DNA of 64,000 nt from Pseudozyma flocculosa PF-1 (lineage: Eukaryota > Basidiomycota > Ustilaginomycetes > Ustilaginales > Ustilaginaceae). The position numbers and the translations under genes are program-made. This document shows, one piece after another, positions 20,888 through 64,000 of this stretch. The stretch's first letter is position 1, and every line of letters begins with the position of its first letter. The stretch is from NCBI RefSeq assembly GCF_000417875.1, contig NW_006920869.1, forward strand, positions 551,759-615,758. Reading direction: 5' to 3'. The notes under the pieces are model-generated. The model was given only the letters and a program-made list of their open reading frames with translations, had not been told where the DNA came from and made no database searches.

Positions 20888-23479
20888 CTAGTGCGTGTAC
20901 AAGAAGTAGATGTTCTTGTTGTCGGTCATCTGCGCGAGGGGAGCAAGTGGCGGAGCGGAGGCACCAGGCTTCGTCAGCTCCCTCTTCGACAGACGGATGA
21001 AGCGAGGAGCGGCAGCGAGCTACTCACGTCGAGTTCGCCGTTGATCTTGTTCTTGAGCACCCGCTCTTCTTCCGAGACGCCCATGGCTCGCAGCACCTTG
21101 CGACGGCGGGCGTTGGCCCACACCAGGTAGACTAGCCATGCGAGGGTGAGTCTGCAAGAAGCGGACCGAGAGACCGGGACCACGTCAGTTGACGGCTTCG
21201 AGATGAGACGCCAGGCAGGACTCGGCCGGAAGTACGGCGCACTCACACGAACGTCAGGCCTAGCATGGCTGCCGTGACGATCAAGCCGGTCGTGTACTGC
21301 GGCGCCTCTTCGTCCCTGAAGGCCTGTGGCCCGATCATGTTCTGCCAGGCTCGCAGGTCGACATGAGGCAAAGTAGAAGGGGAAGAGGACGAGGCCGGCT
21401 TCAGTTCGACCTCGATCGACAACTCGCTTGCCGCAACGGTCCCCGGACAAGACTCACGCCAACGCAGTACCCGATAAACGTCGTAGTGCTGACGACGGAC
21501 TTCTTGGTGCGCCCGCCGATGATGCTGGGCATCAACGCCCAGGTGAGGAAGCCGTTGATGGAGAAGAGCACGCTCATCATATACACGCCGTACTTGATCC
21601 ACTTGTACGTCGCGTCCGTGGGCAGCAGCCCGGCCACGAGCACGGCGGCCAAGGTGGGCAGGACAGTGACGCTCATGAAGAAGAAACGTGTACCGGGGAA
21701 GTAATGGATCACAGCCTGTTGCCAAGAGTCACGAGACGGTGCACGGCCTTGGTCAGCTTCAACGTCGGGTCAGGAGCATTCCGGTGCAGCGTCCAACTTA
21801 CGATGCAGAAAAAGATGCTCAGGCACGACGTGGCGTAGAGGGGGAGCTGGTAGATGATGCTGTCGAGGTTGCTGAAGCCGAACGAGCTGAAGATGACGCT
21901 CTGGAACGTCGTCAGGCCGCCATTGGGGATGCAGCTGATGAGCGTGAGGAAGAAGAGGAAGCTGTCGTCGAAAAAGGCCAGCAGACATTGTCGAAGGCAG
22001 GCATCAGCGTGTTGCCAGAACCCGCCTGCCGGGACGCTACATGGGAGGCTTGTGTCAATGTGTTCGTGATGCTCACTATGTGTTAGGGTCCGTGAAGGCG
22101 TCCCAGACCTGATCCAACTTCCAGGCTTGCGTCTCGCCGCCTCCGGTACCGTTGTTGATGGTACGTGCATGGGCTGCCTTCTTCTCCCTGTCGTTGAGCC
22201 ACCACGCGGTCGAGGGGAGGCGTAAGAAGACGCATGCGATTAGACCGACAAAGATGGTGACGCCGCCGAGGAAGAGGTTGATGGTTCGCCTGCGTACATC
22301 GAGTAGGAGCAGCAGATGAGCAGTACGCTGATCAGTCGGTGCGACCTCAAAGCAAGGACGAGGAGCGAGGGGGAGCGGGAGCGTCAAGGGGACTTACCAA
22401 CCGCTCAGACCGCCCTGCTGCTCCGAATGCTTGCCCAAAAAGTAAATGACGACGGTCGTCCACAGCGAGAAGCCCGTGTTCTGCGGTCGAGATGCGAAGG
22501 AGGCCCGTTAGGCGTCGTGGCGGATCCGCTGCTGGATGGAATGCAAGTCGCCGCACACTCACCATGGCGAGGTACATCATCTGCCTGCTGTTCTGCTCCG
22601 AGGTCTTGTACCAGCTGCCGACGATGAGCATGAAGCCGGGTGTGATGCCGCCCTCCATCGCGCCGAGGAGGAAGCGCAGCGCCACTTTGATACGCGATGC
22701 GGTTTAGGCGGGCAAGGCGGAGGGGCCCAGAAATACGTCAATCGAGAACGCTTCGACAATCGATGCGAGGGCCTGTAACTGCTCACTCACTGAGGGAGGC
22801 AAAGTTCTGGCAAGCCGCTAGACACATGACGACACCGCCCCAGACCACGATGAGGATCGAGAGGAAGCGCGCGGCATTGACGCGCTGCATATAGTAGTTG
22901 AGCAGCGGCTGGGCGACGAGGTACCCGAGATAGCTGTTGTCGCCAGGCGAGGCGACGTGCTCTGGTCATCAGCGCTTCCAATCCTGCACAGGTCTCGTCG
23001 ACGACGGGTCGGCTCCCGCCGGCTAGCTCACAAGATGGTCGCGAGCCAGGAGAATTGATTGTCGGCGAGACTCGTATCTTCAGCCAGGTTGAAGAGGATG
23101 CCGGCGCTGAGCGAGATCTTGTCCGCGAACTGCATGCCGTAGATTGACATCATGAGCGGGAGCAGGTACCAGTCGATCTTGCGCTGCGATGCAAAGTCTC
23201 GAGAGCGCGAGGATGTCAGAGAGGAATCTGCAACACTACCGTGCTGCGGACTTCAACAGGCCGACTCACCAGCAACCGCTTGTCCTCCTCGGGCGTGATG
23301 AGCTCTTCGTCCTGGAGCACTCCCTGCACCTTTTCTGCCTGCTGTGAGTCCAACTGCGAGCCGAGTTCGGTCATACCGACGGATCCGCCCTGCTTTTCGC
23401 TGTCGAATGCATGTTTGCCCTGGCCTTCCGAGGGAGGACGGGAAAGAATCGCGTCCTGGTCCTGCTTCTCGCTGGACAT
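20888..23479 (-). CDS. MFS transporter, anion:cation symporter (allantoate permease/Dal5-like) family
   Basis: Eleven exons join with consistent phase: 23479-23270, 23183-23032, 22933-22791, 22684-22563, 22480-22398, 22289-22077, 21961-21802, 21715-21458, 21341-21247, 21151-21028 and 20929-20888 (533 aa). Family hallmarks include RKIDWYLLPLM after a hydrophilic N-terminus, MQFADKISLS, LRFLLGAMEGGITPG, LISCIPNGGLTTFQS, and the C-terminal block NGELDMTDNKNIYFLYTH. The Dal5/Tna1/Vht1 family imports allantoate, nicotinate, biotin, pantothenate or similar organic anions with protons through twelve membrane helices. The substrate cannot be read from sequence. The 42-nt last exon carries the conserved tail. 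The acceptor before exon 4 (CAAAG) is weak. It is by far the most intron-rich gene in the window. Confidence 0.9.
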
Positions 23480-28200: not shown

Positions 28201-28340
28201 GTTGGGCAGAGTGTGTCGTGCGGTGGTGGTTGAGTGGTTGTGCGAGAGTGTGTGAGGTTGGCAAAGAAGGGAAAGACGGAGATGATATGAAATGGGCGTG
28301 GGGAGGGGAGAGAGGGGCCACGGATGTCGTGTGCGAGGTT

Positions 28341-28346
28341 CTTATA
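28341..28346 (-). promoter_or_regulatory. TATA-like element of the alcohol dehydrogenase gene
   Basis: Reads TATAAG on the minus strand, about 145 bp upstream of the ATG, in an otherwise GC-rich region. Confidence 0.4.
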
Positions 28347-29604
28347 CCGAGGCGAGCGGCGGCCCAGTCCCAGCACGGCGGCGACGAGGTCAGCGGGGGG
28401 TGGAGGAGGCGGGGGGCCCCCAGCCAAGGGGACCAAGAGAGGCCCAGCCAAAGGCAGCACGGGCGGCAACAGCGTGGGCGCGCTGACGGAAGTTTCAGAA
28501 AGAGGCCCCAGCTCCCCGACCTGCTTGCTTCTTCTCGCTCCCCCGCGCACATCGGCCAAGCAAGGACAGGCAGGGAGGAGCTGCAGGCCAGCCAGCCAGC
28601 CAGCCACCCACCCGTCGTCGACGTGGGTGGAGCAGCCAGGCTCTGCGCACACCTTGGTTTGGCCCCTCTCCTCGCCGTCGTCGTCGCCGACGCAAAGCGA
28701 CTCTGCCAACGCCACACGTCTATCGACCACCAATAATCTGGACCAGCAGATCGACAGACCCCTTGACCGGCGACCACCGTCGTCATCATCCGCCTGGCCA
28801 CTCGCCTCGATACCCTAGCGAGCGAGCACCTGCATCCGAACGGGCCAACCACGCATCGTCCCGGCCTGGCCCAGGTGGTGGCCACGGCTGCCTTGCTTGG
28901 CTGCAGCGCCGCTTTGCCGGTGGTCAACAGAACATCGGATCGGCTGCAAAAACCGTCGGCGCAGGTCGACATCACCGCCGGCTACCTCCGCCAGGCGTGG
29001 ACCGATCACCCAAACTCGCCACAGAGGAATTGCAAATTGAAAGAGATAACCGGGCGGGGGAAGGCGACTCCCAATCGGCCATCGGGCAGATTACAAGATC
29101 GGGCACCCGTAGCCTTTGTCCGATTTGGCCGCCGGCTGCACGGCCGCCATCCGAGCCAGAAACGTGGACGGCGCGGTGCGGCGGCGTCGAGAACGTGCCC
29201 CTCCCAACGTCTCTCTTGCTTCTTCCTCGCAGCCGTCATCCTCCCGGCAACCGAGCTCCGCTTCGCCTCCATACGGTCGCCAGCGTAGGTATCGGATCCA
29301 TGGCGCACGCCATCATGCGACCTCACGATGGCTTTCAATCAGCGCAATCAGGCGCCGTGCCGAAGCATCGGTCCGATGCGTTGCCGGAGCCGTGAGATGG
29401 TGCCGCCACCCTGCTGCACTTCAAAAGGGGTGCCTGGCCCGACCATGCCTCTCTCTCGGCTACGAGCCGGCACCATGGCGGAACCTTCGCATTGATCGAC
29501 TTCCATCGGAGCGATATGGCATCTTCTCGTCCTGACTTGCGGCCCTCGACCGCGCGTCCTTCGAGAGCAGCCCATGAAAAGGCAATCGACAAACCGTGAG
29601 AGGC

Positions 29605-29611
29605 TATATAA
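29605..29611 (+). promoter_or_regulatory. TATA box of the secreted esterase-like gene
   Basis: TATATAA lies 94 bp upstream of the ATG, followed by a CT-rich leader and a CACC ATG start context. Confidence 0.6.
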
Positions 29612-29704
29612 CCATGAGCTTCTTCAGGTCTCTTGGGCCATGGTCCTCGCCGTATACGCTCGTTGCTCCCTCTCTACCATCCCCTTCATCGCCTCTCGCT
29701 CACC

Positions 29705-52301: not shown

Positions 52302-54611
52302 ATGCTCAAAGGACCCCCCTCCATGTCGACCGTGAGCAGGGCGCTCGTGGCAAGGCCGGCTCGAGCCTGGCTTGCCCCTCTGGTCCGACATGGCTCGACG
52401 GCCGGCTACTTGGCACACGCTGCGGCCACCTACTCGATCGCCTATCCATCTTCGAGGTCAGTGCACACCACAGGGGCGAGGCGAGACCATGCCGGCAGCA
52501 AACACACCTCAAAGCGCCCCACCCGCGTCAAAGACACCAAGCACAAGCACAAGCACAAGCCTAAGCACTCGGACCGCACGCATCGCACCACGTCCCAGAG
52601 CCGTCGAGACCGGACCACCGCCAAGCGCGTCCTTCTTAGCGAGCGCATGCAGAAAGAAGCACGCACCGTCCTAAGGCGGATCGATCGCGATGCCGACCGA
52701 GCAGCAGAGTTGCAACAGATACCCACAGAATCCGTCTTCAAGAGATCCTCCGCCACCAGAGTCAAGGATTTTCTCGCCGCCCGAAGCCAGCGTAAGCGCG
52801 GGTCGGGGTTCGGCAACTCAGCACAGAAGACGACAAACGATGAGGGCAAAGCTCAGTCTTCAACGTCAGCGCCCTCAGCATCACTGGCGCCAGACTCGCA
52901 GCAGACGGCAGCAGCGGCTTCGACGCGCTCCCCCCCGACAGCGACACAGGCGCAACCACAAGTGACCGACAACCCGGCGTCTCAGATGGGAGCCACACAG
53001 CCCAACACGAGTATCAGCGGCGCCTTGGGGCGGATCTTTGCTGCTGCAAAGGAGAGGCTGGCGGGAGCACTGCTGGGTGGACAGATGCCAACGCCGCTGA
53101 CGCCCCCACCGGAGGCGGAATCTACGCCGGCACAGATCGAAAAGGCGCGGCAAGAAGCCGAAGCGGCCGCGTTTGCTGCTTTGTCCAAGACCGAGCGCCT
53201 CGAGTCGCAGGCGCGCATCATCACGCAGGCCATTCGACGAGCGCGCGAGAGGGGCAGCGCCGAGGACGAAGAGACCTTCTTCCACCCTTTCCCAGACGCC
53301 AGCGCGCCCGCCGACTTCGAGGGCCAGGACTACATCTGGCTCTCACTCGGTCCCGACCCAGAAAACTGGGCGCGCAACGTGCCACCTGTTAAGGATCGCT
53401 GGCTCGAGACGCTCAGCCTCGGCCTGACCAAGAGCATCGTGGTGGACAAGGAGGGCGAAGAGGCGTACGAGGACGACTTCCTCGACAGCCTGGTCGACGA
53501 CTACGACCTCGAGGACCACGAGCGCCTCGAGCAGCTCGGAGACTCGATCGTCAACATGAGCGCCCGCCTGCTCGCCTACCAAAACTACCCAGACGTCAAC
53601 GAGGGGACGCTGACGAGGCTGAGCAACTACCCAACGCAGAACAACATCCTCGGCATCCTCTTCCGCGAGTCGGGGCTTGCTCAGAGGCGCCATGCGTTGA
53701 AAAACGAGCTCAAACAGCTGACGCAGGGAACAGCCGCGGCCACGACAGACGCCGACTCCTCTGTCGATGACGGACCTCGCCGGCCCGTCGCAGAGGACCC
53801 TCACCGCGTCACCATCCAGAAGCTCGACGACACGGTCGATAACAGCATCACGCGCGGCCTGGTCAAGAAGGACGCCGATGTCTTTGAGGCCTACGTGGCG
53901 GCCATCTTTCTCTCGCATGATTGCGACTTCAAGCTGGTTCACGACTGGCTCTCGGAGCTGTTCCGCCCGTTCCAGGAGCAGGCCTTCCGCTTCATGGTGC
54001 AGCGCAGCGAGAGCATCGCCCGCCTCAACCAGGCCATCGCAGACCGGGCCGCCGCATCACCGGGCCTCGAGGTCGCCGATACCGGCGGACAGGAGCAGGA
54101 GCAGCATCTGCCACCGTCGCGCAACGGCCGCTTCGGCCTAAAGGGCATCTACGCCGCCTCGATGGACCCGACCATGACTTTTGGCACAGTCAAGGCGAGC
54201 TACAACGTACCCACGTTCAAGCCCGTTGCGGGCCTCGGCAGCACGGGTCGCAGCGGTTCGGCGCAGGACAGCGGGAGCGGCTTCATCACCGACGAGTTCC
54301 TCACGGTGGCGGCGCGGGCCCGTCGGCTGAGAGAAGAGCGTCTGACCGAGGAGGCGCGGCTGCGCGACGAGGAAGAGCTGATGAAGCAGGGCTGGTTTAA
54401 GCGGGGATTCCTCAACCTGCGGCAGGGCTTCAACAAGCTCGTGCTGGGTCAGGAAGAGGAGAGGCGGAGCAAGGAAGAGGTCCTCGCGCAGGCCAGGACC
54501 ATCTACGGCAGGGGTTCGACGGGACGCGAGGCGCTGCGGATCGCGGCTACCGAGCAGGAGAAGAAGGCCGCGGCCAAGAAGAAGAAGGCGGCCGCCAGGG
54601 TGCAGCGGTAG
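52302..54611 (+). CDS. Mitochondrial RNase III-domain protein
   Basis: An intron-free frame of 769 aa from the first in-frame ATG (52302; MLKGPPSMSTVSRALVARPARAWL), with an alternative at 52323. The N-terminus is a basic presequence. Residues about 70-340 are low-complexity, starting with a Lys/His run (KHKHKHKPKH). The RNase III domain follows: RWLETLSLGLTKSI, EDHERLEQLGDSIVNMSARL (the signature helix), then a loop insertion, then KKDADVFEAYVAAIFLSHD. The acids equivalent to E. coli Glu38, Glu41, Asp45, Asp114 and Glu117 are all present, unlike in the inactive ribosomal relatives such as mL44. The C-terminus is a charged coiled coil, and no clear dsRBD is seen. Either a mitoribosomal protein or an active mitochondrial RNA-processing enzyme is possible. 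Confidence 0.8.
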   Translation: MLKGPPSMSTVSRALVARPARAWLAPLVRHGSTAGYLAHAAATYSIAYPSSRSVHTTGARRDHAGSKHTSKRPTRVKDTKHKHKHKPKHSDRTHRTTSQSRRDRTTAKRVLLSERMQKEARTVLRRIDRDADRAAELQQIPTESVFKRSSATRVKDFLAARSQRKRGSGFGNSAQKTTNDEGKAQSSTSAPSASLAPDSQQTAAAASTRSPPTATQAQPQVTDNPASQMGATQPNTSISGALGRIFAAAKERLAGALLGGQMPTPLTPPPEAESTPAQIEKARQEAEAAAFAALSKTERLESQARIITQAIRRARERGSAEDEETFFHPFPDASAPADFEGQDYIWLSLGPDPENWARNVPPVKDRWLETLSLGLTKSIVVDKEGEEAYEDDFLDSLVDDYDLEDHERLEQLGDSIVNMSARLLAYQNYPDVNEGTLTRLSNYPTQNNILGILFRESGLAQRRHALKNELKQLTQGTAAATTDADSSVDDGPRRPVAEDPHRVTIQKLDDTVDNSITRGLVKKDADVFEAYVAAIFLSHDCDFKLVHDWLSELFRPFQEQAFRFMVQRSESIARLNQAIADRAAASPGLEVADTGGQEQEQHLPPSRNGRFGLKGIYAASMDPTMTFGTVKASYNVPTFKPVAGLGSTGRSGSAQDSGSGFITDEFLTVAARARRLREERLTEEARLRDEEELMKQGWFKRGFLNLRQGFNKLVLGQEEERRSKEEVLAQARTIYGRGSTGREALRIAATEQEKKAAAKKKKAAARVQR

Positions 54612-54969
54612 CCGGCGTGCGAGCAGAGAGGAAGGGCCTTGTTGTCGTTGTGATCCTTTCATAGATATGCAACCACCTAGACGATGCATCCAAGTCCGAG
54701 TTGTGATCCTTGAACCTGCTCCCGCAGAACCATGCCCGATGCGGATTCTCGTGTAGTCGGCCACCTCCGATCCTGCCGAGGCCGAATTCGGAGGCGCTTC
54801 CGACCCTGCACCTTTTCCTCCTACCTCCACTGGACCGCCGCTCGCTCCCTCTTGCACGCTGCTCTGTTCCAGCAATCCCGCTATCCTCTTGTTCAATCCC
54901 CCTTCGACGTCGGATCTACGCCGTGGCTGCCTGATACATGGCAGCAGCCTCCGTGCCTTGCCATCGAGG
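54612..54969. other. Promoter of the quinate-cluster regulator
   Basis: It holds one perfect CCGAATTCGG palindrome, nearby CCGA/TCGG half-sites, and a long CT-rich leader before the start. Confidence 0.6.
54782..54791. promoter_or_regulatory. CCGAATTCGG palindrome, upstream of the cluster regulator
   Basis: A perfect 10-bp palindrome, CCG-N4-CGG with an AATT core, 179 bp upstream of the regulator ATG. CCG/CGG triplet pairs are the usual contacts of Zn2Cys6 factors, so autoregulation is inferred. Confidence 0.65.
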
Positions 54970-57832
54970 ATGATCGATCCGGCCGACGGCAGCGCCGGCA
55001 CGTCCGCGGTAGGAGCCACGCTTGCTGCCCCATCGTCGCCGTCCGCCTCCGATAGCCCACATCGGCGCACCAAAGCCAAGTCCTGCCGCGAATGCATCAG
55101 GCTCAAGCTCAGATGCTCGAGAGGACCAAACTGGCCGTGCGCTAGATGTGTCCAGCGCGGCACGGCCGACATCTGTCCCGAAGGCCAGCTTGCCACCCGT
55201 CCCTACAAGCGTGCAAGGTAGGTCTCAAGACAGCAGCCTCTCCATCGCCTTAGCGGCTGACAGCTTACTTCCCTCTTTGCAACATCGGTACATACGTGCG
55301 CAACAACACAGAACCAGCAACGGCGCCAACGGCGCACGCCAAGGCACGCATCGGGCCAACAGCGAAGCCCACGGCAACGCCACGATTCGCGGCATCGATC
55401 CGCCCTCAACTGCGCGCGACCCGCTGCAAACTCCGGCCCCTTCACAGCCATCATCGAGGCTCGCTTTCGAGCACAGCCCGCGCGATCCCCTTCCGGCCCG
55501 TTCGCGGCCAAGCCGGCCTCCCGAGAGCGGCTTCGAGGCGTCTGCTGAGCTTGAACAAGGGACTCTCCAGCTCGGCCGAGCAGGAAGGTCGCGATGGGTC
55601 GGAGCCCACGGTCATTCCTTTGCCTTGGCTCAAGACGATGAGCGCGAGAGCCTCTACTCGCGGGCCACATCGCCAATCGAGTCACAGAGACGCTCGCTCA
55701 GCGCGCTTGCCTCGACCGCCGAACTTGCGGCCGAACAACGAGGGGATCGAAACAGGCCAGAGGCGACAGGAGGCTCACCACCAGCCGATGAGGTCGACAT
55801 CCTTGCTGCAATACTTCGTCGACCGGCCGTCTTCATACCAACACCTGGCATCCGCTCGCCCTTCTCCGACCGGATGATCGTCGGCGAGCTTTCGCGCTTC
55901 CTACCGCCCGTCGCGCAGGCTCGCCGCGCCTTCCACGTCTACATCTGGAACGTGAGCTGGATGTACGATCCTGTCCAGCGGCTCGCAGACCTCTGGGACG
56001 ACTTCTACGCGGAGCCGCTGACATCGGCTAGCGCCGAGGACGCTGAGGTTATCGGACGGATCAGCACTCGTCCATCGACCTCAGACGGCGCCAAGCACCC
56101 GCACCGCCTGGCGCTACTGTTTAGCGTGCTCTCGCTCGGCGTGCTTTTTGATGTGCTGCCGGGCGCCGGAGCCGGGCGCGCAGAGGAGCTCTATCAGTGC
56201 TCGTGGGCCGCTCTGTCCTTGTCGAGCCTGAACGATTCAAACACCCTCGAGAATGTCCAGACGATCCACCTCATCGTGAGTACCAGTTTCACGTCGCTGC
56301 GCGCCAGGCATTGGCTGACGCTTCTGCTCGCAACGCTCGATCCACGTCGCTCAGGGTCAGTACCTGTGCAATGTCAAGAATGGCCGGAATGCCGAATCTC
56401 TCACCCCGTTACTGGGCTCCGCGGCGCGATCAGCCATTGCCATGGGCCTGCATCGCGAAGCGCAGGCTTGGAACCTGCCGCCACATCAGCTCGAGGAGCG
56501 GCGACGAGCCTTTTGGGAGCTCTACGCGTGCGATGCCTTCCGCTCTCTGGCCTACGGTCGACCGTGCAACCTACAAGATCACCACGTCAATGCCTCGTTC
56601 CCGGAGCATCGCCCCAGCAAGCGGCTTGCCGATCACTTCCACACGCTCAAGTTCCACGTTGTCAGGATCCTCAACCGCAGCCTGGATTCATGCCACGGCC
56701 GCCCCGACGTCGACTATTCGACGGTACTGGCCTTTGACAAGGAGCTTCGGGACCTGTGGGCCAGGATCCCGCCTGCTCTCGGCACGCAGAGCTGGACGTC
56801 GGTGCCGGACTCGGACCTGGAGCGCGTCTCTCGCGACCTCGACGATGCTGTTGGCCTACGCGAGATGCACCGGCAGCTCCAGGCGCATACGCTCGCCGCC
56901 AACATCCACCAGACCTTGCTACACCTCCATCGGACCTGGTTTCTACGAGCGCTGCAATCTGGGCAGGATGCCTTCCAGTCCGCTTACGTACGCTCCGTGG
57001 TGGCGGTCTCGGAGAGCAGTCGCACGCTGATCAGCATTGGCTCCAGCATCTACCACAAGGCGAGGAGCGTCAGCCTGCGCTGGAACTTTTTCTGGCAGCA
57101 CGTCTTCAACGCTGGCATCTGCCAGTGTCTGCACGTGCTCTACTTGCCTCATGGCATCACGAGCCTCAGTGCATGGGAGGATGTCGGCAAGGCGGTGAGC
57201 CTGCTGCAGCAGGTGCGTTCGGGCAAGGGCGATGGCATCTGGGCGGGCAAGATCGATCTCCTCGAGAGGATGAAAGCCAAGTCAGCCGAAAGCCTCAAGA
57301 ATGGGCCGCCCGCGACGGTACGAAGAGGGTCCGAGGGCGGTGCTCACCCTGTACTTGATCAACAGCTCAGGTTAGTCGGGGCGACCCTGAGCGTCGACCA
57401 GCGCAGGGATGGCAGGCAAGCGGACGGTGTCGAGGGTGCTTCCACCCCAGAGTCGCGAGGGACTCGCGACGACGCACACGGTCTCGAGTCGCATGGGCAG
57501 CATCAACCCGCCGGCGCAGAGCCCGGCCCCACATCTCGCCGCCGGGGCGGCGAGATGGACTGCCTTCCGACATCCATGGCTCGGCTTGATACGGCCATGG
57601 ACGAGGGCTGGCGCATCCAATCGCCTCGTCAAGAGCTCGCGCCTCTACCGTTTGCCGCGCTGCTGGATGCACAGCCCGCTCAGCCCCTTGGTGGCGGCAC
57701 GTCTCAGCTGCTGGATTGGAGCACGTTCGATGGCGGCTTGCTCTTGACCGAGATGCTGCAGGATGGGTGCGAGCCCGACGCTCGCTTCTGGGAGCAATTC
57801 TTTGGTGCTGCAGCAGCAGCGCAGCCAAACGG

Positions 57833-57869
<37 letters not shown>

Positions 57870-57947
57870 GAGCAGGCTTCAGGGCAGTTGTCCCTCTTCG
57901 ACCTAGGTCTTGGAACGGGGAACGATGGCATGGCTGCTTTGCCGTGA
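54970..57947 (+). CDS. Zn2Cys6 transcription factor, likely regulator of the quinate cluster
   Basis: Three exons (54970-55217, 55312-56275, 56355-57947) give 934 aa. The zinc cluster at about residues 38-66 reads C-x2-C-x6-C-x7-C-x2-C-x8-C (CRECIRLKLRC, then WPCARC), preceded by basic residues. A fungal_trans domain spans about 290-620: FSDRMIVGELSRFL, LALLFSVLSLGVLFDVL, YLCNVKNGRNAESLTPLLGSAARSAIAMGLHRE and RRAFWELYACDAFRSLAYGRP. The last two join across intron 2. A C-terminal polyglutamine run and acidic/hydrophobic blocks (LLDWSTFDGGLLLTEML) look like an activation domain. It opens the cluster and faces the dehydrogenase gene. It is not of the AROM-derived QUTA/QA-1F type, so if it controls the cluster it is a different regulator. 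A further small intron near 57319-57369 cannot be excluded. Confidence 0.88.
57834..57869 (+). repeat. Polyglutamine-coding CAG run
   Basis: Twelve consecutive Gln codons (mostly CAG) in the C-terminal activation region of the Zn2Cys6 factor. It is a likely length-variable site. Confidence 0.95.
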
Positions 57948-58033
57948 TGGACACGGTCGGCTCATGTTCCTACGATCCGGTGTCCCGGCACATGAAAGTG
58001 CGGGCCGCAGCAGTTTTGTCGTGGGCGAGCCGA

Positions 58034-58048
58034 CTCCGACATTCGGAG
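58034..58048. promoter_or_regulatory. CTCCGACATTCGGAG inverted repeat
   Basis: Six-base arms CTCCGA and TCGGAG are perfect inverted repeats around CAT, giving a CCG-N5-CGG version of the cluster element, about 315 bp upstream of the dehydrogenase start. Confidence 0.5.
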
Positions 58049-58056
58049 TAACCCTT

Positions 58057-58064
58057 GAATTCGG
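58057..58064. promoter_or_regulatory. Degenerate cluster palindrome (TTGAATTCGG)
   Basis: Matches 8 of 10 positions of CCGAATTCGG counting the two bases before it. It lies nine bases after the inverted repeat at 58034. Confidence 0.4.
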
Positions 58065-58193
58065 ATGTGCACCGAAAACGGAGCAGAAGTGACCGGTGCC
58101 CTTCGAACGCACCTCCCGGCCCAATCGGAAGCAGCACCGTCGGCCCTTTTGTCCTGTCGTTGTCCGGCAATGCCGGAAGACCAGCTCCATCAT

Positions 58194-58203
58194 CCGAATT
58201 GGG
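58194..58203. promoter_or_regulatory. Degenerate cluster palindrome (CCGAATTGGG)
   Basis: Matches 9 of 10 positions of CCGAATTCGG, about 160 bp upstream of the dehydrogenase start. Confidence 0.45.
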
Positions 58204-58359
58204 GATGGCAGGACGGTCAATTGGTCGGCGACAGGAGATTGAGAAGCTGAAGCTCGCAGTCGGTCCACTAAAGTCGCCGACCCCTAAGACCACGCCTCAT
58301 CGACTCGGTCCATCTTCGACCACGACCATCACCTTCAAGACCGTCCCGAGCATCACACC

Positions 58360-59459
58360 ATGTCACATCAGCAGTATTCGCCCGCGCTGACGGCAGCGAC
58401 GACATCGGCGACGGCGCCAGCTCGGCGCACCTACCTCTTCGGTGCGGGCATCGGGTCTTCACTCTCGCCTGCCTTCCACAACGCTTGCTACCGCGCCCGC
58501 GGACTGGATTGGACCCTCTCCCGGCTCGACTCGACCGATATGCCTGCCTTCCTCGAGCGCGTGTACGCAGACGACTTTGGCGGAAGCGCCGTGACCATGC
58601 CGCACAAGTCAGCCATCCTCACCCATGCGGATCACGTCGAGCAGCAGGCCAAGCTGATCGGCGCGGCCAACACCATCTTCTTTCGGACGGATGCTGATGG
58701 CCAGCGCAGATTGGTGGCTACGAATGTGAGTGCCTGCGGGCATTCTCGTTGCTCTACTGCAGAGCGTCATCGTGTGCTGACTCTTCTCTCACCCCTTGCC
58801 CTACTTTGAGACGATAGACGGACGTCGCTGGAATCCGTGACTCGATTCTCACCTCGCTTCCTGCATCGTCACGACCCACCGCGTCGGGCGCCGAATCGAG
58901 CTCGCACATTGGTCTCGTCGTCGGCGGCGGCGGAACGACCCGCACCGCAGTCTACACCCTTCGATACGAACTGCACTGCTCCGACATCTACATCGTCAAC
59001 CGCATCGACGACGAGGCTTCGGCCATCATCGATGACTTTGCCTCGCAGGGCGTGACGGGTATCCACCAGCTCAAAACACCCGCCGACGTCGCACAGCTGC
59101 GGGCCGTGCCACGCTTCATTGTCAATGCTGTGCCTTCCTTCGAGCCACAGACGGACGGCGAAAAGCTGGCTCGCGCCACGCTGACCGCAGTGTTGGAGAG
59201 AGGGCAGGCGCAGGGCCCAGACGGCGAAAGGGTGGTGCTAGAGATGTGCTACTTCCCGCACACGTGGACCACGGTCTGTCAAATGGCGCAAGATAATGGC
59301 TGGGAGGTGATCCAGGGCATGGAGGCCATGTACCACCAGGCGGTGGCGCAGCAGCTGCTGTGGATTCCTGAGACGGGAGGGGTCGATCTGCTGGCTGTCG
59401 GACGAAGAGGAGCCGAGGAGGAGATCGAGCGTAGAGCACAAGGGCTGGCGCCCCTATAG
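58360..59459 (+). CDS. qutB: Quinate/shikimate dehydrogenase
   Basis: Two exons (58360-58725, 58818-59459) give 335 aa, close to ascomycete quinate dehydrogenases. The substrate-binding domain shows GSSLSPAFHNA (residues 32-42), VTMPHK with the catalytic Lys at 83, and GAANTI (101-106). NTDVAGIRDS (from 122) is restored across the intron. The nucleotide-binding loop is GGGGTTRTA at 158-166, followed by IVNRID. The enzyme oxidises quinate (or shikimate) to 3-dehydroquinate (or 3-dehydroshikimate), the entry step of the pathway. An AROM-derived repressor shares this fold, but here the catalytic Lys and nucleotide loop look intact. It lies downstream of the regulator and is convergent with qutG, 62 bp apart. 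Confidence 0.88.
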
Positions 59460-59521
59460 CCCGTGCACCAGCGAGTGCGTCCGTTCATCGCGGCTGCTGT
59501 ATGTAGGTACTTCCTCTGACT

Positions 59522-60846
59522 CTACTCTGCATAGGTGACTCCCTCCCTGTTGTAGTCGAGACCGCCCTGGTCCAGCGCCTTCCACACGCCCCTCGCAACT
59601 CTGCGCTGAGCCTCCTTGGCCGTCTCGCCCGTCTTGTCGTTGTCGCAGCAAGGCCTGATGCAGAGAAAGCGCCTCGCTCCCAACGACGCGGCGGGAACAT
59701 CTTCGTTGGCGTCCCAGAACCTCGACCCAGGTGGTGGTGCGTTGGCGTCGGTGGCCATGCCGCCCGCTTCGTAGAGGATGGCGAGACCGGCGCAGACATC
59801 CCACTCCCAGCACCCTCCTTCCCAGAACACGTCGACGGAACCGGAGGCGCAGTAAGCCAAATCGAGCGCCGCGCTGCCCAGACTGCGGATACCATGCACC
59901 TGCACTCCTCCGCCCTTCCGTCCTCCCTGTCCGTTGTCGATACCGCTGCGGGACGATGCCAGATTGAGAAAAGTGTTCGCCTTTCGCATCAGGTTGCCTT
60001 CTGGCGAAGGTCGACGATCTTTACCCCATTCCGAAGCGACCAGCAGTCCGGATGGCGCCGTCTCGGAAAGAAGACGTAGTGGCGACAGAGGAAGACGAAG
60101 CGGCCTCGGATTATCGCCGAGGTCGTCTTGCGCCTCCGGTCCGGTCGATGGCGAACGCCGTAGCCCGTGCGCATGTCGCTGCAGCCAGGACAAGGTATGC
60201 GTCGTCGGGTTATCGGTGCGAGGAAAAGATTGGAACGCTCCAAGACCTTGACAGGAGGACCACAGCGTGCCCCTCGATGCCCGTACGTCAAATCCGCCGA
60301 GCAGAGGAGCGTAGATGGCGCCGACAACGGGATGTTTGTTGATCGTCAATCCAATCGAGATGCAAATGAGCGGAAAGAGGTGCACGTAGTTGACGGTTCC
60401 ATCCAGCGGGTCAACGATCCACGTCGGCTCCTGTTGCGGCGACGGGGCAGGCGGCAAGCTGAAGCTATGAGGTCTGCCTCTTTCTCACGGCAGTAAAGAC
60501 CGGGATCAAGGCCATCAGGCTCACTCACATCGCCCAGCTCGAACTTCTTGCTGCCGCCCGCAGCATATGTCTCCTCGGCCAGGATACGGTGCTCTGGGAA
60601 TCGTCGCTTGATCTCGCCGATGATGAAGTTCTCGACGGCGATGTCAGTGTCGGTCACGACGTCGACGCTTGAGTCCTTGTCCTTGATATTGAGAGCTGCC
60701 GTGTTGTCCGTCGACGAGGGAAGAGACGTGGTGGGAGAGGGAGGGCAATATCCGGCCTGAGCGCGTGTGAATGCGCTCTGGCATAGCAATGCGCCTGCTC
60801 GCACCGCCAGATCGGTCGCGAAGTCGTGATACTGCTCCAGTGACAT
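59522..60846 (-). CDS. qutG: Inositol-monophosphatase-family protein, QutG/QA-X-like
   Basis: Two exons (60846-60529, 60430-59522) give 408 aa. Metal-binding motifs of the family are visible: the Glu pair in HRILAEETYA, WIVDPLDGTVNYVH at about residues 110-123, and WDVCAGLAILYEAGG near 315-330. GSAALDLAYCASGSVDVFWE lies between. QutG in A. nidulans and QA-X in N. crassa are cluster members whose role is unknown; they resemble inositol monophosphatase but are not required for the three known steps. The protein is about 70 residues longer than those, with an Arg/Pro-rich insert around 170-260. It shares a divergent promoter with the dehydroquinase gene, which holds a perfect cluster palindrome. 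Confidence 0.9.
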
Positions 60847-61236
60847 GCTGTCGGCGAAAGGGACGGAGATGGAGGACGGGGTTAAGGAGTGAAGTCCAGA
60901 GGAAGGCACGGGCCTTGAGCGCCTACGATTTCAGCCGTCGGTGCCGAGGAGACCGATGGCTTGAAGCCAGATGGTCTCGGGAGGCTCGGAAGCCGAGGAA
61001 TTGACCGACCGCCACAGGTCAAGAACGACCTCCGATGACCTCGCTGCCGCTTCTCCGAATCTGCCATCGTCCCGAATTCGGTGGCGGACCCTAGCGTGGC
61101 GGCGATTGTGTAGACAGCTCGTCATTGTCGAAGTCAGGAAGATTGGTCACAGTGGTTGGGTCGGGACCAAGGCATCCCCGGACGTCTTAATAGCCCGGAT
61201 GAAGAGACAAAGCGGGGCCACACGCTATCCACGACC
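60847..61236. other. Divergent promoter of qutG and qutE
   Basis: Contains the perfect palindrome at 61072 and several CCGA/TCGG half-sites, such as TCTCCGAATC about 20 bp before it. Confidence 0.6.
61072..61081. promoter_or_regulatory. CCGAATTCGG palindrome in the qutG/qutE divergent promoter
   Basis: Perfect 10-bp palindrome, 165 bp from the qutE ATG and 226 bp from the qutG ATG. Its position would allow control of both genes. Confidence 0.7.
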
Positions 61237-61927
61237 ATGACGGCTTCCCCTGTCAAAGGCAGTATCCTGCTCATCAATGGCCCTAATCTCAATCTCCTCG
61301 GGACGAGAGAACCTGACAAGTGAGTCGCGACACTTCAGACATACCCCCTTTCGCCGCTCCGATGGGCCTTGACGCCTCCTTTCGCGCAGGTACGGTACCA
61401 CAACCCTAGCAGAGGTTGAGGCCCACGCCCAATCGCAGTGCCAGGCAGCTGGCGCCGGATGTCAATCCTATCAATCAAACCACGAAGGCGCAATCGTGGA
61501 CCGGATTCACGCCGCAAGGATCGACGGTACGACAAAGACGATCGTCATCAATGCCGGCGCCTACACCCACACCAGCGTAGCCATCCGAGACGCTTTGGTC
61601 GGCGTCGGCTTGCCATTTGTCGAGGTCCACGTGAGTTCATCTCCCCGCTAGAGAACTGTACTTGCGGACGGAGGCAACCTCGACTGATGTTGGGAAGATG
61701 CTCACGACAGATCACGAACGTCCACGCAAGAGAAGCGTTCAGGCACCACTCATACCTCTCTGACAAGGCAGCAGGCGTCGTCGTAGGCCTTGGGACCTTG
61801 TGAGTGCCAGCGATGGGACGTCCGTCGATGAATTCGCCCCCGCTGACACGTTGGCACGGCTCTGCATGGTCGGAACAGCGGCTATACGGCGGCCATCGAC
61901 TTTTGCCTCCGCTCTTTCATGTCGTAG
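61237..61927 (+). CDS. qutE: Catabolic type II 3-dehydroquinase
   Basis: Four exons (61237-61319, 61390-61630, 61711-61799, 61879-61927) give 153 aa, the same size as A. nidulans QutE. Type II signatures are complete: [21 protein letters not shown] with the catalytic Tyr at 29 restored across intron 1, [32 protein letters not shown], and [19 protein letters not shown] with the active-site His, restored across intron 2. The final exon adds [13 protein letters not shown]. The enzyme forms a dodecamer and dehydrates 3-dehydroquinate to 3-dehydroshikimate. Three introns in 460 coding bases is high for this window. It is convergent with the dehydratase gene, 76 bp apart. Confidence 0.97.
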
Positions 61928-62003
61928 CTAGCTAGACGAGGCGACGACTTGATTAGCGCTTTGCAAAGTAAGCCGTCGCGCAAAGGTAGTCTACATTCTC
62001 GCG

Positions 62004-63152
62004 CTACTCCTGCATCGCCTCGATGAACTCGTCGTGGCCCTTTCGACATCTGCACGCTGCCTGCGCCGGGAACGCCGCATCGTCCGTGAAAGTGTCGGCG
62101 TTGAAGTACTCGGCGCTGACCCAGCCTCTCCAGCCGCAGTCCTGCAGTATCACCTGGGCGATCCTCTGTGCCGGCATGTATCCTTCGCCGGGAAAGAGGC
62201 GGTGCATGCGCGCCCAGCACATCTTGACGTTGGCGTGCTGGGACGCATCGAAGATGTCGCTCTCCTCGCTCAGAGGCGGGTCCATCTTTCTGGCGTCGCC
62301 GAGCTGCATGAAGAAGATCTTGCTTCGATTGGCCGCATTGGCAGGGCCCTCGAACGTGTCGCGAAGCTTGGTCAGCGTCGCCTCGACGGCCTCGTCCGCA
62401 CCGACATGTTTGCCGTCGACCGACGTCGGGTCAGCGTAGATGGCGCCGAGGATCTGGAAAGTATCCATGACGATGCCAAAGTTGGGACGGTCGACTCTTT
62501 GGACCTGTCGCCAAGCCTGCTCCCATGTTGTCGTGCAGTGCCCGAAGCACATCGCTTCGTAAGCCCAAAACTTGGGTCTCGGCCAGCGCAGTCCCATGTC
62601 GGCAAGGATCGTCAGGTCTTCAACGATCCTCGACTCGTCATTCGAGACGAAAGGACCGCCGAACATTGCCGAGGCGACCTGGATCATATCCGTTCCGAGC
62701 AAGTCGGCGAGCGTGAACCACATTGGTACCTCTGCGAGCCGTTCGTCCCGCCTCGAGGTTGGCAGTAGTCCCGGATAGTGCAGGAACGGCTCGAGACAGA
62801 TGATTTGTAGCGAGGCGGCTTCGCACCTGGCTCGGACTGATCGAGCCGCCGCGTAGAGCTGTTCCGCGCAAGGTGCGACGGCGGAATCGAGGCTGAAGAG
62901 GCGACGCGCTTCGTTCTGAAGGCACTCGAAGTGGATCTCGATGCCGTGGTATCCCGCTTCCCTCAAAGCCGCGATCTTGGCTTCGAGACCGTGCCGTGCT
63001 GCATGCCGTCCTAGGGAGGCCGACATCATTGCCTGCGGGAGCTTGTTTATCGGCGTCGAGTCCGGGAGGAGATAAGGGCAGACGAGTCTTCGCAGCGGAG
63101 GCAATGGAATGGTAGTCTTGTGCCTGGGTACCTGAGAGGACTGGTCGGCCAT
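62004..63152 (-). CDS. qutC: 3-dehydroshikimate dehydratase
   Basis: An intron-free frame; from ATG 63152 it encodes 382 aa, and an in-frame ATG at 63230 would give 408. The TIM-barrel order matches fungal dehydroshikimate dehydratases (QA-4/QutC): NKLPQAMMSASLGRHAARHG, EAGYHGIEIHFECL, LADLLGTDMIQVASAMFGG, RPKFWAYEAMCFG, NFGIVMDTFQILG, IFFMQLGDARKM, HRLFPGEGYMP and WRGWVSAEYFNAD, with acidic strand ends expected to bind a divalent metal. The enzyme makes protocatechuate, linking quinate to the beta-ketoadipate pathway. A perfect cluster palindrome lies 640 bp upstream, with several AATTCGGAC/ATCGGACG half-sites at 63440-63550. A paralogue lies at 41.6-42.9 kb. Confidence 0.9.
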   Translation of the reverse strand: MADQSSQVPRHKTTIPLPPLRRLVCPYLLPDSTPINKLPQAMMSASLGRHAARHGLEAKIAALREAGYHGIEIHFECLQNEARRLFSLDSAVAPCAEQLYAAARSVRARCEAASLQIICLEPFLHYPGLLPTSRRDERLAEVPMWFTLADLLGTDMIQVASAMFGGPFVSNDESRIVEDLTILADMGLRWPRPKFWAYEAMCFGHCTTTWEQAWRQVQRVDRPNFGIVMDTFQILGAIYADPTSVDGKHVGADEAVEATLTKLRDTFEGPANAANRSKIFFMQLGDARKMDPPLSEESDIFDASQHANVKMCWARMHRLFPGEGYMPAQRIAQVILQDCGWRGWVSAEYFNADTFTDDAAFPAQAACRCRKGHDEFIEAMQE

Positions 63153-64000
63153 TGAGCGCGCCTTGTTAGTTCGAATGAAAGCCTCATTGCACAGCCTTGA
63201 GGAGGCGTGGGAGAGACCGAGGGTCGACATGTCGGGCGCTTGACTGCGGAATGACAAGGTTTCGCGGGGGAGAGATGATGGTGGGCGCAACGAGGTGTGA
63301 TCTCAAGCTGTCGCTGTCCAAGGCCGTCACAGCTTGTCGTACGTCGAACGACTTTATGGCAACGCAGTAGAGAGCAAGTCAGCCACCCTGCTGGGAACGA
63401 TTGACGTACGTGACGTCTACCTGTGGGCACACGGGAGCTTGGCTGTCATGTTTCGGACCGGACATGACAGGGTGCCGAACGACATCCGAACGTTGCATGG
63501 ATCGGACGTCGTCAATCGGACGCCGAGTTGTCAATTCGGACGTCGGCAAAGCGCATGGCTGGTCGGCCAATTGTTGTAGCCGACCCCACATACCCGTCCG
63601 CTCTTCAGCCCAGGGGGTTTGGCCGTCCCTCGTTTGCCGAATGCCCGCTCCCGCCACGCCGCGCGATGTCCCGTCGAGAGCCGTTGAAGGGTGAAAATCT
63701 TTGCTCCCGCCACGACGTCGCTCCAAAGCAGCATTTGCTCGAGCACTGCCGGGACCGCTGTTCCTCGAGAGCAACTTCAAGTGCCCTACTGTCCGAATTC
63801 GGCATCATCCGTCCGCGTCGCGGGTGACTCGTCCTGTGGGGAAGAAGGGCCTGTCCTCGAACCTCGCCCTCGAGCCTCTCTACCATCATCGTCCCCCTCT
63901 TCCCCGCCTCCTTCCCCGCATCGCGTGGCATCAGCCCTTCCCCTTCTCCCCTGGACTCCACGGTATCCGCGAGCTACACAAGCTGGAGCTTCAGCCGCAC
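63153..64000. other. Promoter of the dehydratase gene and right edge of window
   Basis: It holds a dense run of TCGGAC-type half-sites (about 63450-63545) and a perfect palindrome at 63793. No gene is supported. A plus-strand gene starting beyond 64000 could share this promoter. Confidence 0.5.
63793..63802. promoter_or_regulatory. CCGAATTCGG palindrome upstream of the dehydratase gene
   Basis: A perfect 10-bp palindrome 641 bp upstream of the dehydratase ATG and 200 bp from the window edge. It might instead serve a divergent gene to the right. Confidence 0.6.

Follow-up and report, generated by a model that had tools for sequence, protein, structure and literature searches.

Few examples of how eukaryotes control gene clusters are as well established in textbooks as the qa/qut cluster, and parts of the Q system serve as expression tools. 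A 64,000-nucleotide stretch of the Pseudozyma flocculosa PF-1 genome (hereafter the window; contig C1:551759-615758, from a genome of 23.05 Mb in 33 contigs) raises the question of which DNA element and which regulator control the quinate genes of this ustilaginaceous yeast. At the end of the window and just beyond it lie six genes in the order regulator (+), qutB (+), qutG (-), qutE (+), qutC (-) and qutD (+), and an earlier sequence-only reading proposed that the palindrome CCGAATTCGG marks their promoters. Our analysis points instead to a shorter unit, the half-site AATTCGGA or its core ATTCGGA. With a probability of roughly 0.65, we regard it as a pathway-specific cis-element, likely bound by the adjacent Zn2Cys6 regulator, which would switch on the cluster in the presence of quinate.

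The perfect palindrome occurs three times in the window, exactly where the sequence-only reading had placed it, and nowhere else in the 64 kb (0.056 copies are expected at the genome rate, which agrees with the earlier estimate of well under one). The first copy (54782-54791, containing a half-site ATTCGGA at 54786 on the plus strand) lies 188 bp before the proposed ATG of the regulator gene, and the second (61072-61081) sits between qutG and qutE in their divergent promoter, at distances of 226 bp from the qutG ATG and 166 bp from the qutE ATG. The third (63793-63802, with a half-site at 63792 on the minus strand) is 638 bp upstream of the qutC start codon and 345 bp upstream of that of qutD; it was rightly placed upstream of qutC, but since qutD begins at 64138 the promoter is shared divergently with that gene and is not qutC's alone. 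The imperfect forms described for the qutB promoter are also present: a CCG-N5-CGG repeat at 58034-58048 (CTCCGA-CAT-TCGGAG, containing ATTCGGA at 58041 on the plus strand), the near-copy GAATTCGG at 58057-58065 (+), which holds a half-site AATTCGGA at 58058 without a CCG partner, and a minus-strand half-site AATTCGGA at 58193-58203, where CCGAATTGGG at 58194 is one mismatch from the palindrome. The CCG-N5-CGG repeat is perfect as claimed, but a CCG...CGG pair is an everted CGG pair and not an inverted one.

Genome-wide counting, which had been suggested as a check, found 20 perfect copies of CCGAATTCGG (2 in a backward-read control), so the palindrome is rare, and three of 20 random points would fall within 9,011 bp anywhere with P = 5.5e-4. 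The loose form behaves differently. Sites with at most one mismatch number 496 in the genome (235 in the backward-read control), and the window contains six such places versus a shuffle mean of 2.91, with 8 of 100 shuffles reaching six; the one-mismatch palindrome is thus not unusual in the window. With 20 perfect and 496 one-mismatch copies in the genome, a unique palindrome was rejected as the whole story. We also ruled out that CCGAATTCGG, which we take to be a classic EcoRI linker, is a cloning artefact, because the 12-base flanks on both sides differ at 20 of 20 places and half-sites outside the palindromes are enriched as well.

We then counted all words in the four intergenic regions of the cluster (54612-54969, 57948-58359, 60847-61237 and 63156-64137; 2,143 bp in total) against 242.5 kb of background, which is conservative for ATTCGGA because 17 of the 19 background pieces were chosen for holding the palindrome. 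The top words were ATTCGG among 6-mers (12 versus 0.71 expected), ATTCGGA among 7-mers (7 versus 0.09 expected, and present in all four regions) and AATTCGGA among 8-mers (5 versus 0.05 expected). On both strands the genome contains 941 copies of ATTCGGA (362 in the backward-read control) and 169 of AATTCGGA (38 in the control), and at these rates the four regions should hold 0.0875 and 0.016 copies, respectively. All seven ATTCGGA between 54612 and 64137 are intergenic, the cluster genes including qutD hold none, and 12 of 14 occurrences of ATTCGG/CCGAAT in the cluster are intergenic. The nearest ATTCGGA beyond the cluster are at 22422 and 66347 (the latter within the long open frame of the next gene), and among all 91 copies on contig C1, seven fall in the 9.1 kb of the cluster and at most three in any other such stretch. 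For the looser word WTCGGA, noncoding background predicts 1.96 intergenic copies and 14 were found, divided 2, 4, 2 and 6 among the regions; six more lie in the 7,383 bp of the five genes that the window contains. The enrichment extends to ATTCGGA half-sites outside the palindromes (58041, 58059, 61054 and 63534), including a single half-site at 61054-61060 (-) in the divergent qutG-qutE promoter. The densest run comprises five [A/T]TCGGA half-sites at 63452-63541 (63452 +, 63485 -, 63501 +, 63515 + and 63535 +, the last inside AATTCGGA at 63533), a span of 90 bp in the part of the qutC-qutD region that is nearer to qutC.

The sequence-only reading had taken the CCG/CGG pair geometry as the mark of these promoters. 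This did not hold up: CCG-N4-CGG is not clearly enriched (4 versus 2.33 expected) whereas ATTCGGA strongly is, so we dropped the geometry as the signal, and we read the CCGAATTCGG palindrome most readily as a pair of half-sites that overlap, ATTCGGA being the enriched unit. A fixed half-site spacing of 17-18 bp was likewise rejected, as same-strand spacings are 11, 14, 15, 17, 18, 20, 23, 31, 34 and 40. Another word, GTCAATT/AATTGAC, is present as a single copy in three of the intergenic regions (58216, 60999 and 63530; 0.03 expected in total) and may be a variant or partner site.

The same counts bear on who reads the element. It could be real and be read by another factor, either a P. flocculosa counterpart of Leu3/LeuB or a general carbon regulator, and the strongest competitor of our proposal is that a LeuB counterpart is in control: Aspergillus fumigatus LeuB binds CCGN4CGG according to excerpts of PMC6221358, and some of the 17 perfect palindromes elsewhere in the genome precede segments that carry catalase, fatty-acid elongase and Zn-cluster domains. 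Yet CCG-N4-CGG is not generally enriched in the cluster, and the enriched word is a half-site that lacks symmetry and is flanked by AATT. Of two candidate LeuB target loci, the KARI stretch (3,501 bp, which also has three WTCGGA words) contains four CCGN4CGG and the LeuA-type stretch (4,001 bp) eight, with no AATT core and no ATTCGGA in either, a comparison that covers two branched-chain genes only and weakens this rival. Nor did a branched-chain gene turn up in the 20 segments scanned next to 10 of the 17 other palindromes. We consider reading by another factor unlikely.

We consider it very improbable that the words reflect a local core-promoter or structural feature (nucleosome positioning or AT-richness) and not a regulator site. 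The cluster intergenic DNA (GC 0.595-0.605) does have slightly more A+T than most of the window (0.60-0.65), and TCGG-type words exceed their backward readings genome-wide (see the counts above for ATTCGGA and the palindrome), so a general bias in the sequence accounts for some of their abundance; but dinucleotide shuffles of the four regions (n = 500) fail to reproduce the seven ATTCGGA (mean 0.34, maximum 3), and the density of WTCGGA in the noncoding background is about one seventh of that in the cluster intergenic DNA.

For the regulator-bound element that we favour, we infer binding, dimer mode, inducer and direction of regulation as follows. The core of the element would be the half-site AATTCGGA (more loosely ATTCGGA or WTCGGA), which is found alone, in loosely spaced groups and, as CCGAATTCGG, in an everted pair whose members overlap. 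The regulator would probably bind the everted pair as a dimer, with the CGG triplets facing outward 4 bp apart, in a geometry like that of LeuB/Leu3, while elsewhere neighbouring half-sites may help through looser contacts with the regulator. In the presence of quinate, it would activate qutB, qutG/qutE and qutC/qutD. The palindrome before the regulator's own ATG suggests autoregulation, that is, control of the regulator's own gene as well.

The regulator gene (54970-57947, +; our own model with introns at 55218-55311 and 56276-56354, encoding 934 aa) has in exon 1 the cysteines 39, 42, 49, 57, 60 and 69, which form C-X2-C-X6-C-X7-C-X2-C-X8-C and agree with the Zn2Cys6 definition CX2CX6CX5-9CX2CX6-8C near the N terminus, as worded in excerpts of PMC5082525. 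Its Fungal_trans domain (PF04082) scores 69.5 bits versus a cut-off of 23, and a genome search found no close paralogue, the next matches being pieces 26-42% identical. Near the C terminus, CAG repeats (window 57834-57866) encode a poly-glutamine run, a possible activation region whose length is perhaps variable.

Eight relatives of the regulator emerged from 7,995 candidates scored, the named ones coming from Jaminaea, Thecaphora and Microstroma; four of the eight (P0001, P0003, P0004 and P0007) have the same Cys pattern, and the other four are predicted proteins in which that region is not seen. In Thecaphora frezii the regulator, qutB and qutC relatives carry the tags 007830, 007829 and 007826 and lie on contigs of equal size, as do the three in Jaminaea, where a second qutB-like protein is on a different contig. 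One regulator relative and one qutC relative share a contig size of 6,339 bases, presumably that of a single contig. If contigs of equal size are taken as one, the regulator is apparently linked to qutB and qutC in both Thecaphora and Jaminaea. A scan of viral contigs with the regulator alignment found no DNA of relatives. We note that Thecaphora, Jaminaea and Tilletiaria appear among the listed relatives of qutC (E up to 1e-3) and qutB (E up to 1e-30) and that no Ustilago or Sporisorium does; many smuts may have lost the quinate cluster. In Ustilago maydis, excerpts of PMC5082525 mention one gene whose annotation relates it to a quinate transporter.

Several results weigh against our proposal. 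The perfect palindrome is missing before qutB, the half-sites have no fixed spacing, and the 17 other perfect copies in the genome are not promoter-specific, with 7 of 17 in coding-scored segments and 10 outside them (coding was called by a home-made codon log-odds score and is approximate). Pfam Zn_clus did not match the Zn2Cys6 motif of the regulator, and the AlphaFold model of the zinc-cluster exon 1 was poor (mean predicted local distance difference test score, pLDDT, of 57) and was not used. Among the matches listed, Tilletiaria has qutB and qutC relatives and no regulator, and Microstroma has a regulator relative and no qutB or qutC. A scan of 941 random points places seven in some 9.1 kb with P = 0.0016, and nominal Poisson P values near 1e-11 overstate the enrichment, because control sets reach 1.5e-10 (through a local repeat shared by two pieces) and 3e-9 (with a word found in three). 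These controls were 64 sets from 16 stretches, built of noncoding pieces (7 of 23 stretches had too few noncoding intervals and were dropped), cleared of low-complexity words and of words with fewer than three copies, and no longer than the cluster set (1,702-2,111 bp for the eight best listed). The best word of the cluster nevertheless ranks first of the 65 sets (9e-12). When a word must occur in all four pieces, as at least one does in 18 of the 64 control sets, the best control reaches 2.8e-6.

The controls bear directly on the explanation by chance, namely that a striking palindrome was picked post hoc from a 64-kb window. There were 1,024 palindromic 10-mers to pick from, the one-mismatch copies are not clearly enriched, and local word clusters with very low nominal P values do arise in the control sets. 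However, the half-sites outside the palindromes are enriched along with CCGAATTCGG, which holds for each of the four regions but not for the genes, and although 83.7 kb contain 96 palindromic 10-mers, CCGAATTCGG alone has three copies within 9.1 kb. Chance is quite improbable in our estimate.

A wider regulon was not upheld at any of the places examined. Pfam scans covered 20 segments flanking 10 of the 17 other palindromes (those outside coding segments) and turned up nothing that resembles quinate catabolism, and two intradiol-dioxygenase loci of 3.4 kb each contain no ATTCGGA. Among the first 100 of the 169 places of AATTCGGA, there are a trio on contig C5 and a pair on contig C2, whose adjoining frames are by eye unlinked to aromatics. 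On C2, two opposed AATTCGGA lie 116 bp apart between two frames, one of which is by eye replication-factor-like (C2:1333293-1333416, L027). Other local groups were seen: TCCCGAA seven times in three noncoding pieces of the catalase stretch with CCGAATTCGG upstream (L010); and up to six WTCGGA per kb in a mostly noncoding part of the window (about 28300-29650).

The gene content is that of a quinate (qut/qa) catabolic cluster, as predicted dehydrogenase, dehydroquinase, dehydroshikimate dehydratase and permease genes adjoin one another according to Pfam domains and homologues. In gene order, the Pfam matches are Fungal_trans, the shikimate-dehydrogenase N domain, inositol monophosphatase, class II dehydroquinase, TIM-barrel dehydratase and sugar transporter; the names qutB to qutG are borrowed from the ascomycete genes, and the enzyme roles are predicted. 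Putative quinate dehydrogenase qutB (58360-59460, +; intron 58726-58817) has a product 100% identical to PFL1_00209, and qutG (59522-60846, -), of the inositol-monophosphatase family, has a candidate intron near 60430-60528. The predicted class II dehydroquinase gene qutE (61238-61927, +) has later introns probably at 61631-61710 and 61800-61878, qutC (62007-63155, -) would encode a dehydroshikimate dehydratase with a xylose-isomerase-like TIM barrel, and the putative permease gene qutD (+) has its ATG at window coordinate 64138, just past the window end. The gene preceding the regulator encodes a ribonuclease III domain and is transcribed towards the regulator, with its stop at 54611.

Among known systems, the closest in gene content are the QA-1F/QUTA clusters of Neurospora and Aspergillus, which according to excerpts of PMC12610400 likewise combine quinate dehydrogenase, dehydroquinase, dehydroshikimate dehydratase, permease, qutG and a Zn2Cys6 activator gene. 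Fungal_trans is found both in the QA-1F sequence used and in the P. flocculosa regulator, so our use of this domain as a feature separating the regulator from QUTA was wrong. The regulator was not among the six genome matches to a QA-1F query (best E 2.1e-7), a partial sequence that may contain errors. The QA-1F/QUTA element is of another type, judging from the patterns in excerpts of PMC3114802, and the sequence-only reading correctly set the two apart: the 16-mer GGRTAARYRYTTATCC is not in the cluster promoters, the listed genome places with at most two mismatches (9 and 13 per strand; 7 and 8 in the backward control) all lie away from it, and the best match within the cluster has three mismatches and lies in the regulator coding region (56058). 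The repressor QUTR/QA-1S consists of shikimate-kinase, dehydroquinase I and shikimate-dehydrogenase domains (excerpts of PMC10512348). The P. flocculosa genome contains a single PF01487 (dehydroquinase I) match and a single PF00275 (EPSP) match, neighbours on contig C7 in an 1,828-aa frame that we take as AROM; since the only dehydroquinase-I match sits there, no QUTR-type repressor was seen by searches with PF01487 and PF00275 (PF01202 and PF08501 were not searched).

Individual features of the element have counterparts elsewhere. A. fumigatus LeuB, a Zn2Cys6 protein, binds CCGN4CGG in electrophoretic mobility shift and surface plasmon resonance assays (excerpts of PMC6221358), and CCGAATTCGG has the same arrangement of outward CGG triplets 4 bp apart as this Leu3/LeuB element; here, in contrast, the core is AATT, single half-sites are enriched too and the cluster is catabolic. 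The fission-yeast Zn2Cys6 protein Pho7 recognises TCG(G/C)(A/T)xxTTxAA, an extended TCGGA-type site without a CGG pair (excerpts of PMC5559640), whereas in P. flocculosa the recurrent extension is upstream (AATTCGGA) and pairs occur as well. From a related fungus, the U. maydis Zn2Cys6 regulator Rss1 takes part in the sensing of salicylate and the breakdown of aromatics, and according to excerpts of PMC5082525 the word it binds was not determined; likened by description, it differs in responding to salicylate. Among the titles listed by literature searches, with most subscription journals outside their scope, none dealt with a quinate-cluster element in basidiomycetes. Compared with the ascomycete QUTA/QUTR circuit, we suggest, at somewhat less than even odds, that the Ustilaginomycotina cluster is wired independently, by a self-regulating, inducer-sensing Zn2Cys6 protein of a different subfamily that would work without an AROM-derived repressor through a new 8-bp half-site AATTCGGA, single or as an everted pair. 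If true, the element and its regulator could give an orthogonal expression switch, and the same enzymes under a different regulator and element, with an AROM-derived repressor nowhere visible, would show cleanly how control can be rewired while the pathway itself is conserved.

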